A DNA stretch of 64,000 nt from Paracandidimonas soli (GTDB lineage Bacteria; Pseudomonadota; Gammaproteobacteria; Burkholderiales; Burkholderiaceae_B): NCBI RefSeq assembly GCF_004342005.1, contig NZ_SMBX01000002.1, forward strand, positions 62,001-126,000. Direction: 5' to 3'. This document shows positions 31,189 to 36,170 of this stretch, piece after piece; position 1 is the first letter of the stretch, and each line of letters starts with the position of its first letter. The notes beneath the pieces are model-generated. The model did no database searches and was not told where the DNA came from. It worked only from the letters and a program-made list of their open reading frames with translations. A program made the position numbers and the translations under genes.

Positions 31189-32397
31189 ATGTATCGTCAG
31201 CGGTTGGGAAAAATACTGTACATGGCTGCGGCGGCAGTCTCCTTCCAGGCGGCTGCTGCCAGTGATGTCATCCGCATCGGCGAACTGAACAGCTACAAGA
31301 CGCAGCCCGCGTTCCTGGAGCCGTACAAAAAGGGCATGGATCTGGCCGTGGAGCAGATCAATGCGGCTGGCGGAGTCAACGGCAAGAAGCTGGAACTGAT
31401 CGTCAGGGACGACAACTCCAATCCGGGCGATGCCGTGCGCACGGCCGAGGAATTGATCACGCGCGACCGCGTGGACGTGCTGACCGGCACCTTCCTGTCG
31501 CATATCGGGCTGGCCGTGTCGGATTTCGCCAAGCAGCGCAAGCGCTTCTTCCTGGCCAGCGAACCGCTGACCGACAAGATGGTCTGGGAGCAGGGCAACC
31601 GCTATACCTACCGCCTGCGCAATTCCACCTACATGCAGGTGTCCATGCTGATCCCCGCCGCTGTGCAGATGAACCGCAAGCGCTGGGCCATCGTCTATCC
31701 CAACTATGAATACGGACAGTCGGCGGTCGCCACGTTCAAGCGCCTGTTGAAAGAGGCGCAGCCGGACGTGGAGTTCGTGGTCGAGCAGGCTACGCCGCTG
31801 GGCCGCATCGATGCCGGCAATGTGGTGCAGGCGCTGGCGGACGCCAAGCCCGACGCCATGTTCAACGTGCTGTTTGCCACCGATCTGGCCAAGTTCGTGC
31901 GCGCCGCCAATCAGCGCCGTTTCCTGAAGGACCTGCCGGTCGTCAGCATGCTGACGGGTGAGCCGGAATACCTGGATCCGCTGGGTCGCGAAACGCCGGT
32001 GGGCTGGGTGGTGACAGGGTATCCGTGGTATGCCATCGACACGCCGGAGCACAACCGCTTCCTGAAGGCCTACCAGGATCGGTTCAATGATTATCCCCGC
32101 CTGGGGACGCTGATCGGCTACAACGCCATCCTGTCGCTGGCGGCCGGTATTGAAAAGGCGGGCTCCACCGATACCGAGGCGCTGATCGCCGCTTTCAAGG
32201 ATCTGACGCTGGACACGCCGGTCGGGCCCATCACCTACCGCGGGCTGGATCACCAGTCGACCATGGGTGCGCACGTGGGCACGCTGGCCATCGAAAACGG
32301 CAAGGGCGTGATGACGGATGTCCGCTACGTGGACGGCGCGACCGTACAGCCCGACGACGAACTGGTGCGCAAGCTGCGCCCGGCGGACGCGCAGTGA
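31189..32397 (+). CDS. branched-chain amino-acid ABC transporter substrate-binding protein (LivK type)
   Basis: A 402-residue periplasmic binding protein. After a signal peptide (KILYMAAAAVSFQAAAA) the mature part begins SDVIRIGELNSYKTQPAFLEPYKKGMDLAVEQINAAGGVNGKKLELIVRDD, the hallmark of the type I (LivJ/LivK) fold. Ligands for this family range from leucine to amides and aromatic acids, so the substrate is uncertain. It is followed, after a hairpin-rich spacer of about 200 bases, by a fused permease-ATPase gene and livF, forming a full ABC system. Confidence 0.93.
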   Translation: MYRQRLGKILYMAAAAVSFQAAAASDVIRIGELNSYKTQPAFLEPYKKGMDLAVEQINAAGGVNGKKLELIVRDDNSNPGDAVRTAEELITRDRVDVLTGTFLSHIGLAVSDFAKQRKRFFLASEPLTDKMVWEQGNRYTYRLRNSTYMQVSMLIPAAVQMNRKRWAIVYPNYEYGQSAVATFKRLLKEAQPDVEFVVEQATPLGRIDAGNVVQALADAKPDAMFNVLFATDLAKFVRAANQRRFLKDLPVVSMLTGEPEYLDPLGRETPVGWVVTGYPWYAIDTPEHNRFLKAYQDRFNDYPRLGTLIGYNAILSLAAGIEKAGSTDTEALIAAFKDLTLDTPVGPITYRGLDHQSTMGAHVGTLAIENGKGVMTDVRYVDGATVQPDDELVRKLRPADAQ

Positions 32398-32417
32398 CCA
32401 CGCGCCGGAGTGCAGGA

Positions 32418-32561
32418 CTCGGCCTTCAGGCCGAGGTCGAGCGAGGCAGTACCCATGCGGTGCCGAAGGCGCCCCCGTATTGTGGCGGAGATGCTCCGGC
32501 CCTTGGGCCGGAGTTCTTCACCATGGATCGAAGCGCAGGCCTCGCCGCTCACGGCGAGGCC
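32418..32561 (+). repeat. three GC-rich intergenic hairpins between livK and the fused permease gene
   Basis: Three perfect inverted repeats stand in a row: 32418-32435 (7-base stem, TTCA loop), 32494-32513 (8-9-base stem) and 32538-32561 (10-base stem, CTCA loop). The first and third are followed by similar GAGCG(A/G)(G/T)GCAGT sequence, so they look like diverged copies of one unit. None has a T-run. Likely effect: protection of the upstream receptor mRNA from 3' decay and lowered expression of the membrane genes. Confidence 0.75.
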
Positions 32562-32593: not shown

Positions 32594-35413
32594 ATGACGC
32601 TGTCGGGCCTGTTCGTCCAGTTCATCAACGGCCTGGCGGAGGCCTCGTCGCTATTTCTCGTCGCGGCGGGCCTGTCGCTGATCTTCGGCGTGACGCGCAT
32701 CGTGAACTTCGCGCACGGTTCGCTGTACATGCTGGGGCTGTACGTGGCCTACAGCCTGGTGGAGCGCTGGGGGGATTCGGCGCTGGGCTTCTGGACGGCG
32801 CTGCTGTGCGCGGCCTTGCTCATCGCCATGCTGGGCCTGTTGATCGAAGTGCTGCTGCTGCGCCGCATCTATCGCGCGCCGGAAATGTTCCAGCTGCTGG
32901 CGACCTTCGCGCTGGTGCTCATATTCAACGATGCCGCGCTGTGGCTGTGGGGGCCGGACGATCTGCTGGGCCCCCTGGCGCCGGGGCTGGATGGCGCGGT
33001 GGAACTGTTCGGCCGCTATGTTCCCGTCTATGACCTGTTGCTGGTCGCCATCGGGCCGCTGGTCCTGCTGGCGCTGTGGCTGCTGTTGACGCGCACGCGC
33101 TGGGGCGCGCTGATCCGCGCCGCCACGCAGGACCGCGAAATGCTGGGCGCCCTCGGCGTGAACCAGGCCTGGCTGTTCACCAGCGTCTTTGCGCTGGGCG
33201 CATTCCTGGCGGCCCTGGGCGGCGCGTTGCAGATACCGCGCCAGCCGGCCGCGCTGGCCCTGGATCTGAGCATCATCGGCGATGTCTTCGTGGTCGTGGT
33301 GGTCGGCGGCATGGGATCCATTCCTGGCGCCTATCTTGCCGCCTTGCTGATTGCCCAGGTCAAGGCGCTGTGCATTGCGCTGGGCGTGGTGTCCATCGGC
33401 GGATTCGAATTCGCCTTTCCCAAGCTGACGCTGGCCGTCGAATTCATCTGCATGGCGCTGGTGCTGGTGTTCCGCCCCTGGGGATTGCTGGGCAAGCCTC
33501 TGGCGCAACTGCGGCACCAGTCCGCCGTGGAAGCCCCCCTGGCGCAGAGTTCGGCTGGCGAGCGCCGGGTCTGGCTGCTATTGCTGGCGGCGCTGGCCTT
33601 GACGCCGCTGTTGTCCTCAAGCCTGCCTTACGCGCCGATTCTGATCCAGGATATCCTCATGACGGTCCTGTTCGCCGCGAGCCTGCATTTCATGATGGGG
33701 CCCGGCGGCATGGTGTCTTTCGGGCACGCGGCCTATTTCGGGCTGGGCGCCTATGCGGCCGCGCTGTTGTTCAAGCTGGCGGGATGGTCCATGCCGGCGG
33801 CCATGCTGGGCGCGCCGGTGCTGGTGCTGCTGGCCGCCATCGTCTTCGGCTGGTTCTGCGTGCGGCTGTCGGGAGTCTACCTGGCCATGCTGACGCTGGC
33901 GTTCGCGCAGATCGTCTGGTCCATCATTTTCCAGTGGGACGGCCTGACGGGGGGCTCCAACGGCATCATCGGCATCTGGCCGGCGCAGTGGCTGTCCGGC
34001 GACCGGTTCTTCTACCTGGTGTTGGCTGTCGTCGTCGCGGGGGCATGGATGTTGCGGCGGATGCAGTTCTCGCCGTTCGGTCATGCCTTGCGGGCCAGCC
34101 GGGACTCAGCCATGCGCGCCGATGCCTGCGGCATCCCGGTGCGCTCGGTGCAGTGGGCGGCGTTCAGCGTGGCGGGCCTGTTCGCCGGTCTTGCGGGAGT
34201 ACTGTTCGTGTTCGCCAAGGGCGGGGCCTCTCCGGAAGTCATTTCAGTGGCCAAGTCGGTCGATGCCCTGGTGATGGTGCTGCTTGGCGGGATCCAGGCA
34301 ATGGCCGGTCCTGTGCTGGGCGCGACGGCCTTCACGCTGCTGCAGGACTGGTTCGTCGGCGCGACGGAATACTGGAGGGCCTTGTTCGGTCTTGTGATCC
34401 TGATGCTCGTGCTGCTGTTTCCTTCGGGGCTGGCGGGGGCGATCCAGCTATTGCGGGACAAGGCCCGCGGAAAGCGGCGCAGTCTTCGGACGGGCAAAAT
34501 ATCCGAAGGAGGCAAGCCCTTGCATGAGCAGGATCCGTGGAAGGAACTGGCCCAGGCCATGGACGGTCTGCCCGGAGCGGCGCGCACGGACGGCGGCACG
34601 GCGGCGATGCCTGCCCCAAGTCCCGCGCACAGCGGCGGATCCGCGTCCTCGGGAGAGCCTTTGCTGAACGTTCGGGGCCTGACGAAGCGCTTTGGTGGAA
34701 ATGTGGCCGTGGACGAGGTCGAGTTTTCCCTTGCGCCAGGCGAGATGCTGGCGCTGATCGGACCGAACGGTGCGGGAAAAAGTACGACATTCAATATGCT
34801 TGGCGGGCAGTTGAAAGCGGACGGAGGCTCGGTGCTGTTCGACGGGACGGAGCTGCTGGGAAGACCGTCGGGCGCGATGGCCTCCATGGGGATCGGACGC
34901 ACATTCCAGATATCGACGCTGTTTGCTTCGATGCGGGTCGTGGAAAATGTGCAGATTGCGCTGATGGCCAGTCAGGGCAGGATCTGGAATGCCTGGAAGG
35001 CCGCGGCGGATATCGGGCGCGAAGCTGCGCTGGAGCTGTTGGATCAGGTCGGCATGCGGGACCAGGCGGACCTGCCCTGCAGCCAGTTGGCCTATGGCGA
35101 CGTCAAGCGCGTGGAACTGGCCGTCAGCCTGGCTGCGCGGCCCAGGCTGCTGCTGATGGACGAGCCGACGGCGGGCATGGCGCCTTCCGAGCGCGCAGGC
35201 CTGATGGCGCTGGTGCGGCGGCTGGCCAGGGAGCGCGATATGGCCGTCCTGTTCACCGAGCACAGCATGGACGTGGTGTTCGGCTACGCGGATCGCATCG
35301 TGGTGCTGTCGCGGGGCAGGCTGATTGCGCAGGGCGACGCACAAGCGATACAGAGCCATGCACAGGTCCAGGCGGTTTACTTCGGGACGGGGAAGACTTT
35401 CGATGCCAGGTGA
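32594..35413 (+). CDS. fused LivH-LivM-LivG: two permease domains and an ATPase in one polypeptide
   Basis: A 939-residue single reading frame joining three normally separate ABC subunits. Residues about 1-300 are a LivH-type permease (LSLIFGVTRIVNFAHGSLYMLG). About 320-630 are a LivM-type permease (GMVSFGHAAYFGLGAYAAALL, AMLTLAFAQIVWSIIFQWDGLTGGSNGI). After a Pro/Gly/Ser-rich linker of about 65 residues, 695-939 are a LivG-type ATPase with Walker A GPNGAGKST (about 722), signature-like LAYGDVKR, Walker B LLLMDEPTAG and switch His in FTEHSMD. All motifs needed for function are present and no stop or frameshift separates them. livF follows within five bases. Start at the ATG 32594; the frame is open further upstream through the hairpin spacer. 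Confidence 0.93.
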   Translation: MTLSGLFVQFINGLAEASSLFLVAAGLSLIFGVTRIVNFAHGSLYMLGLYVAYSLVERWGDSALGFWTALLCAALLIAMLGLLIEVLLLRRIYRAPEMFQLLATFALVLIFNDAALWLWGPDDLLGPLAPGLDGAVELFGRYVPVYDLLLVAIGPLVLLALWLLLTRTRWGALIRAATQDREMLGALGVNQAWLFTSVFALGAFLAALGGALQIPRQPAALALDLSIIGDVFVVVVVGGMGSIPGAYLAALLIAQVKALCIALGVVSIGGFEFAFPKLTLAVEFICMALVLVFRPWGLLGKPLAQLRHQSAVEAPLAQSSAGERRVWLLLLAALALTPLLSSSLPYAPILIQDILMTVLFAASLHFMMGPGGMVSFGHAAYFGLGAYAAALLFKLAGWSMPAAMLGAPVLVLLAAIVFGWFCVRLSGVYLAMLTLAFAQIVWSIIFQWDGLTGGSNGIIGIWPAQWLSGDRFFYLVLAVVVAGAWMLRRMQFSPFGHALRASRDSAMRADACGIPVRSVQWAAFSVAGLFAGLAGVLFVFAKGGASPEVISVAKSVDALVMVLLGGIQAMAGPVLGATAFTLLQDWFVGATEYWRALFGLVILMLVLLFPSGLAGAIQLLRDKARGKRRSLRTGKISEGGKPLHEQDPWKELAQAMDGLPGAARTDGGTAAMPAPSPAHSGGSASSGEPLLNVRGLTKRFGGNVAVDEVEFSLAPGEMLALIGPNGAGKSTTFNMLGGQLKADGGSVLFDGTELLGRPSGAMASMGIGRTFQISTLFASMRVVENVQIALMASQGRIWNAWKAAADIGREAALELLDQVGMRDQADLPCSQLAYGDVKRVELAVSLAARPRLLLMDEPTAGMAPSERAGLMALVRRLARERDMAVLFTEHSMDVVFGYADRIVVLSRGRLIAQGDAQAIQSHAQVQAVYFGTGKTFDAR

Positions 35414-35417
35414 GCAC

Positions 35418-36170
35418 ATGCCTTCATCATCCGGGACTTCCGCGCAGCAAGTCTTGCTGCGCGTCGCGGGGCTGTGCGCCTGGTACGGCGAGGCCCAGAT
35501 CCTGCACGATGTGTCGCTGGAGGTGCGGCGCGGCGAAGTCGTCGCGCTGATGGGCCGCAACGGTGCAGGCAAGTCCACGACCATGCGCAGCCTGGTGGGA
35601 CTGGTGGCGCGCCGCAGCGGCGTCCTGGACTTCATGGGGCATGATCTGCTGCGCCTGCAGCCGTATCAGGCCGCGCGTTGCGGACTGGGCTATGTGCCCG
35701 AGGACAGGCGCGTGTTTTCCGAGCTGACGGTGCTGGAGAATCTGGACCTGGGTCGGCAGCCGGTCCGCGTCTGGCCGGATGGAAGCGAAGTTCCGCAATG
35801 GACTGTCGAGCGCCTGCTGGATCTGTTCCCTTTGCTGCTTCCGTTGCTGAAGCGCCCGGCGGGCCTGCTGAGCGGGGGAGAGCAGCAGATGCTGTCGGTA
35901 GCCCGCACGCTCATGGGAAATCCGTATCTCGTGCTGCTGGACGAGCCCTCCGAAGGTGTCGCGCCCGTGGTGGTCGAGCAGATGGTGGAAATGATCCAGG
36001 CCCTGAAGGCGCACGGCGTCAGCGTGCTGCTGTCCGAGCAGAACCTGCATTTCTCCGCGCTGGTATGCGAGCGCGCCTATGTGCTGGAGAAAGGCTGCGT
36101 GCGCTATGACGGCAGCCTTTCGGCACTGCGGCAGGATGAGGAAAAGCTGCGCAGCCTGCTTTCCATTTGA
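35418..36170 (+). CDS. branched-chain amino-acid type ABC transporter ATPase (LivF type)
   Basis: A 250-residue ABC ATPase of the LivF class. Walker A is GRNGAGKST, the signature LLSGGEQQMLSVAR, Walker B LVLLDEPSEG with SEGVAP typical of LivF, and the switch region LLSEQNLHFS replaces the usual His. It pairs with the LivG domain of the upstream fusion to form the ATPase dimer. The ATG at 35418 has AGGTGAG just upstream; an ATG at 35403 overlapping the upstream gene is the alternative. Confidence 0.94.
   Translation: MPSSSGTSAQQVLLRVAGLCAWYGEAQILHDVSLEVRRGEVVALMGRNGAGKSTTMRSLVGLVARRSGVLDFMGHDLLRLQPYQAARCGLGYVPEDRRVFSELTVLENLDLGRQPVRVWPDGSEVPQWTVERLLDLFPLLLPLLKRPAGLLSGGEQQMLSVARTLMGNPYLVLLDEPSEGVAPVVVEQMVEMIQALKAHGVSVLLSEQNLHFSALVCERAYVLEKGCVRYDGSLSALRQDEEKLRSLLSI

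Follow-up and report, generated by a model that had tools for sequence, protein, structure and literature searches.

The genome of Paracandidimonas soli encodes, in one uninterrupted reading frame, two permease domains and an ATPase domain of an ABC importer, parts that such importers usually keep on separate chains. Our best explanation, which we hold with moderate confidence, is that the gene is a LivH-LivM-linker-LivG fusion within an operon of the HAA class, and that free LivG is likely also started from it, at the in-frame codon TTG643. The operon lies on the forward strand of the 64,000-nucleotide stretch of DNA analysed here (the window: contig NZ_SMBX01000002.1, positions 62,001 to 126,000) and runs from a substrate-binding protein gene through the fusion to LivF. 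Its parts, with HM denoting the joined LivH and LivM permease, are as follows:

31189..32397, forward strand: substrate-binding protein gene, 402 aa (Peripla_BP_6, Pfam E 9.7e-68)
32594..35413, forward strand: fused LivH-LivM-LivG-type gene (open frame of 939 aa; domains; structure model with pLDDT 87)
32594..33493, forward strand: LivH-type permease domain, approximately residues 1-300 (BPD_transp_2; alignment to unfused HM relatives)
33548..34432, forward strand: LivM-type permease domain, approximately residues 319-613 (BPD_transp_2 at 355-605)
34433..34660, forward strand: basic HM tail and Gly/Pro/Ser/Ala-rich linker, approximately residues 614-689 (stretches with pLDDT below 50)
34661..35413, forward strand: LivG-type ATPase domain, residues 690-939, stop included (ABC_tran at 707-860)
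35418..36170 (alternative start 35403), forward strand: separate LivF-type ATPase gene (ABC_tran; best NCBIfam model UrtE, below its cut-off)

That LivH, LivM and LivG share a single frame, as the original prediction proposed, is borne out by translation of 32594-35413, which meets no interruption in 939 codons before the stop, and by Pfam, which places BPD_transp_2 in two stretches (E 9.8e-70) and ABC_tran at residues 707-860; the linker spans approximately residues 623-688. The frame is open upstream as far as 32318, and the alignment of relatives begins at ATG 32594. Two further points of that prediction, that the LivG motifs are intact and that LivF is separate and starts within five bases, also hold: the translation contains GPNGAGKST, LAYGD, LLLMDEP and TEH, which we take to be Walker A, signature, Walker B and H-loop, and ATG 35418 of LivF lies 4 bases past the stop of the fused gene. 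LivF has a second in-frame ATG, at 35403, which overlaps the end of the fused gene and has the better ribosome-binding site (-7.0, against -3.8 at 35418).

Openness of the junction is by itself weak evidence for a fusion, because simulated sequence of the same composition stays open over 27 codons in 52% of runs and over 73 codons in 18%. That two permeases and an ATPase share a frame, in this domain order, is beyond chance. A critical issue is nonetheless whether the frame is real. The genome is a draft of 23 contigs, and read in frame 2 the HM tail would finish with RRRQALA and a stop (TGA 34525) that falls right on an ATGA overlap, the pattern of most relatives. An erroneous base or a faulty assembly in this tail could hide that stop, leaving HM and LivG as separate, overlapping genes. 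We consider this improbable. Codon usage in frame 2 is poor over 34480-34524 (-6.9 vs -0.8 in frame 0), and nothing is gained by letting the tail change from frame 0 to frame 2 (-0.0, vs -0.07 without a switch), the best switch falling at the very end; on the HM tails of relatives the same kind of test ranks the true frame best in only 15 of 27, making this noisy ground. A start of LivG at ATG 34524 is moreover impossible, because that frame stops before the ATPase.

Judged on sequence, the operon is that of a type I HAA-class (Liv/Urt-like) ABC importer in an Alcaligenaceae-like bacterium. Both ATPases carry ABC_tran, their best NCBIfam models being LivG/UrtD and UrtE/LivF, and the nearest models for the operon pieces as a whole are LivG/UrtD, UrtB, UrtC/LivM and UrtE/LivF. 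Among the NCBIfam matches listed, however, each Liv and Urt model scores under its curated cut-off. The Liv equivalog label (LivHMGF) is withheld on the bit scores of LivG (202 of 362), LivM (121.9 of 366) and LivF (175.2 of 441), and the urea transporter label (UrtABCDE) on those of UrtA (89.5 of 492.75), UrtB (162.9 of 250.3), UrtC (150.6 of 296.2), UrtD (186.1 of 304.1) and UrtE (222.1 of 285.8). The C-terminal LivG motif BCA_ABC_TP_C, at residues 909-933, reaches 22.4 bits for a cut-off of 25.5, and the flanking genes, of TerC type and for a phospholipase A1, give no hint of substrate. Because the listed Liv and Urt models all fall below cut-off we keep the class at HAA (Liv/Urt-like) and assign no substrate; the branched-chain amino acids suggested originally are not carried forward.

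How widely the three-domain order is distributed was addressed first within the family, where 204 of 268 genomes gave a match at E <= 1e-90, a limit that places weaker-scoring distant paralogues outside the survey. The junction was read for each HM match with an open frame of at least 800 aa, shorter frames being set aside as too short for H-M-G, save those cut by contig ends; such cuts affect some of the 204 (for example G014, G028, G047, G066 and G235), and G254 contributes a paralogue only. H-M-G frames occur in seven of the 204: this genome, the sole representative of its genus in the genome collection, and G165, G168, G169, G170, G171 and G167, all six of one Oligella-like genus (the fusion of G167 is read only as far as the contig end). 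In all relatives with the junction read HM is one frame of approximately 600-655 aa and, the fused exceptions aside, LivG is a separate gene. The HM stop falls within an ATGA overlap in 25 of 27 near relatives, and because that stop is part of the ATGA the LivG of these relatives begins in another frame.

Several long frames proved not to be fusions of this kind. Those of G133, G219 and G223 are interrupted by stops between HM and G, and the 1140-aa frame of G254 by a stop between H and M; in the 938-aa frame of a G086 paralogue M and G share a frame with H in another, making it an M-G fusion; and in a set of 63 genomes the rows of 800 aa or more, all of them read, are unfused. A junction table flagged eight of 104 loci as fused (L001, L006, L014, L038, L078, L079, L082 and L060). 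L060 was removed, its frame being open only across a stretch of unknown bases; L006, L014, L038, L078, L079 and L082 are Oligella-type, and L038 and L079 look like one genome.

In the named genome collection one of 26 loci is truly fused (Oligella ureolytica, L038). A sample of 398 Pseudomonadota contained 41 genomes matching at E <= 1e-75, and among these the only fusion, judged by open frame and stops, is that of the present genome. Counting annotated records, the best 60 plasmid records hold no single gene spanning all three domains. Actinomycetota, a phylum beyond the genomes surveyed, probably also have annotated fusions of permease and ATP-binding parts that are similar in length. Within the literature searched, from which most subscription papers are absent, no account of a LivH-LivM-LivG fusion turned up, nor in passages of PMC2821768, PMC1853089 and PMC11466899.

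This domain-order search upholds the rarity claimed for the three-domain fusion: seven of 204 family genomes, and no other in the phylum sample. It also alters the claim. The fusion is real, and rare in the groups searched, but by comparison of these genes the joining of H and M is not new, being common to the subfamily; HM was already fused, and therefore only LivG was added. The rare part is the added LivG.

The occurrence of the same architecture in an Oligella-like genus raises the question of whether the fusion was inherited from a common ancestor and lost elsewhere, as membership of the same family and identical domain order might suggest. A tree was built by a quick method from the permease portions of 93 HM sequences, after 12 of 105 rows had been dropped: L060 (an artefact), L080 (cut), L096 and L125 (distant) and eight presumed copies. 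Five Oligella-type fusions group together (SH-aLRT 100) next to the unfused G164, whereas the window gene falls in a different clade (99), so that each stands among unfused genes. Forcing the six fused rows together lowers the log-likelihood by 114.7 (p-AU 2.8e-6, again by the quick method), a test of the gene tree and not of a many-loss scheme, on a group chosen because of the fusion and with G164 on a long branch. The linkers, moreover, are unequal in length and without evident similarity, and G164, itself of the Oligella-like genus, is unfused. We regard common ancestry as very improbable; within this one family of bacteria the H-M-G fusion apparently originated on at least two occasions.

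Traces of how the window fusion may have been assembled come from alignment with seven relatives. CATGAGC, at which stop and start overlap in the relatives, is kept in the window, and between it and the LivG coding start lie approximately 130 additional bases. The kept motif is:

34522..34529, forward strand: GCATGAGC, out of frame, a possible relic of the ancestral overlap of HM stop and LivG start (CATGAG invariant in the seven relatives)

The match is short and could be due to chance. The relatives suggest an ancestor in which HM was already a single permease gene and livG overlapped it as a gene of its own. In the present lineage a change of frame would then have bypassed the HM stop (the tail of HM now lies in a different frame, so that translation passes the presumed old stop), and approximately 130 bases would have been gained before livG; both events would have been needed. 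An origin of the linker by copying from within the genome is rejected: the extra bases have no second copy there, the best other match being 33 bases at E 0.06. So is an origin as a degenerate copy of the dispersed repeat that lies upstream (described below; best score -0.3 bits).

HM would now continue via a flexible linker of approximately 65-75 residues into LivG. An AlphaFold2 model of the fused protein from a 49-row alignment (mean pLDDT 87.1, pTM 0.86) predicts three confident domains and a disordered linker, pLDDT falling below 50 at residues 634-646, 656-673 and 678-681 and in the last five. The 25 residues of HM tail before the linker hold 8 K/R and 2 D/E and, under the positive-inside rule, a basic end is expected on the cytoplasmic side. 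With its attachment point in the cytoplasm the tethered ATPase could thus dock at its site and pair with LivF in the manner of a free subunit; a flexible tether of such length would not obviously hinder docking. The best 60 solved structures by sequence and the 50 fold matches listed cover the ATPase domain, including LivG-type MJ1267 (1g6h), and among these best matches nothing bears on the fusion.

The junction also holds a putative internal translation start:

34505..34512, forward strand: internal Shine-Dalgarno-type (SD) sequence GAAGGAGG (duplex energy to the anti-SD -12.2 kcal/mol)
34520..34522, forward strand: TTG in frame at residue 643, 7 bases downstream of the SD and the putative start of a free LivG of 297 aa

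The strength of this site is unusual. Among start-like codons nearest LivG in unfused relatives the median is -6.8 kcal/mol and only one of 96 is as strong as -12.2; none of 96 in-frame start-like codons within three gene bodies of the operon reaches -10; and the starts of the fused gene and the binding protein stand at -5.0 and -5.8, those of LivF being given above. In the fused frame the codon-usage log-odds lie close to zero or just below it over 34440-34519, turn positive from 34520 to approximately 34600 and weaken again at approximately 34570-34670, where frame 0 is not always best. AAGGAGG with a TTG at the same spacing is expected by chance 0.42 times per 64-kb window, and TTG is a weaker start codon than ATG.

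Because a very strong ribosome-binding site precedes an in-frame TTG, free LivG is probably made too, and tethered and free LivG would then coexist in the cell. The fuller proposal, that one gene yields two ATPase forms through an internal start kept inside the fusion, is put forward tentatively, as a little short of an even chance. Its main competitor is that all LivG resides within the 939-aa protein, the internal SD being a non-functional relic or a product of chance. Such an arrangement is viable, since Oligella-type genes persist in several genomes although in the five scanned the best linker site (-6.9 kcal/mol, at a GTG) is not strong; furthermore, in the local mRNA structure predicted here little of the SD is exposed, the TTG and six of the eight SD bases being mostly paired (unpaired probability 0.01-0.16) and two SD bases unpaired with probability 0.82-0.87. 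What counts against it is that the SD, in frame and well spaced, surpasses 95 of the 96 start-like codons in unfused relatives, and we think it unlikely, if a good deal less so than a sequencing fault.

If LivG is also started at TTG 34520, the 1:1:1 stoichiometry that the fusion had been thought to force is no longer forced. Nor does the fusion create an asymmetric ATPase pair, the other consequence originally drawn from it: an asymmetric LivG/LivF pair together with one copy of each permease is the normal composition of this importer class, which has both asymmetry and one-to-one composition anyway.

Between the binding-protein gene and the fused gene lies a copy of a dispersed repeat of approximately 125 bases with three hairpins:

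32395..32521, forward strand: repeat copy starting at the TGA stop of the binding-protein gene (R1 model match 32383-32529, 138 bits, 12 flank bases included)

The genome holds at least 50 copies (at least 51 matches scored; read in L176-L205 and L216-L235), and nine of 61 genomes, this one included, have a match, the other eight with 1-10 copies each. Changes on both sides of a pair occur at 7 of 34 hairpin pairs. Most copies begin with a stop codon, and in 25 of 50 (15/30 and 10/20) that very codon closes an open frame of 120 aa or longer, compared with 26 of 310 TGAs in the 20 stretches of the second count, the elements' own included (Fisher test of repeat starts against an approximate control of 16/300, p 2e-7); 13 of 14 such upstream frames scanned have a Pfam match. 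In Alcaligenaceae strain CAII-56 (L040 6870-7013) the HM stop is the exact site of a weaker copy (39.6 bits), which lies between HM and LivG and separates the usual ATGA overlap. At gathering thresholds Rfam finds only three tRNAs in the window and not the repeat, and in the repeat region only three weak matches, far below gathering scores. A REP/RAYT origin is rejected, there being no Y1_Tnp (PF01797) match in the genome. The literature searched yielded no description of the repeat; the nearest known kind met there is the ERIC repeat of enterobacteria, of 127 bp (PMC2759123).

The biochemical novelty of the fusion is modest because pairwise fusions (H-M, M-G, G-F) also occur. Its interest lies in a permease-permease-ATPase chain that has apparently arisen at least twice in a family, indicating that the ATPase can be tethered. 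If LivG does exist in two forms here, this gene and the Oligella-type lineage would together be a natural experiment, run more than once, in which one ATPase of a heterodimeric importer is tethered to its permeases. The window version with an internal ribosome-binding site and the Oligella type without one offer a clean comparison, which could help to test whether import depends on free ATPase subunits or on their exchange.

Among known systems the unfused HM, G and F importers of Alcaligenaceae and other Proteobacteria (for example L007, L008 and, from Paralcaligenes ureilyticus, L043) share, where checked, the order binding protein, HM, G, F, and the HM of the nearest Alcaligenaceae loci is 68-75% identical to that of the window; unlike in the window, LivG is a gene of its own, usually with an ATGA overlap. 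LivM-LivG fusions, annotated 'branched-chain amino acid ABC transporter ATP-binding protein/permease', resemble the window gene, as do L163 and L236, in joining a permease by a linker to a LivG-type ATPase, but keep LivH separate and are distant paralogues (approximately 33-38% identity). The LivG-LivF fusion of Allopusillimonas ginsengisoli (L041 6884-8590) belongs to the same operon type and has a long low-complexity linker, yet joins two ATPases where the window fusion joins permease and ATPase; L024, from 3390 to its end, resembles it. In the present genome other importers have long open frames in which H and M pieces, or M and G pieces, lie together (C1:395508-397271, C2:679586-681301 and C4:85562-87343), and several fusion arrangements seem, from their sequences, to coexist among its importers of the class. 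Closest in architecture are the Oligella-type fusions (L038, from Oligella ureolytica DSM 18253, with L006, L014, L078, L079 and L082), which have the same H-M-linker-G order in one frame; in a further one, L080, the fused H-M-G is read to the contig end. The five aligned are 55-56% identical to the window protein over its whole length and belong to the same subfamily. Their linkers are shorter, 46-56 residues vs 76 in the window gene between the same anchors, and, unlike the window gene, the five scanned have no strong internal ribosome-binding site and form a separate clade.
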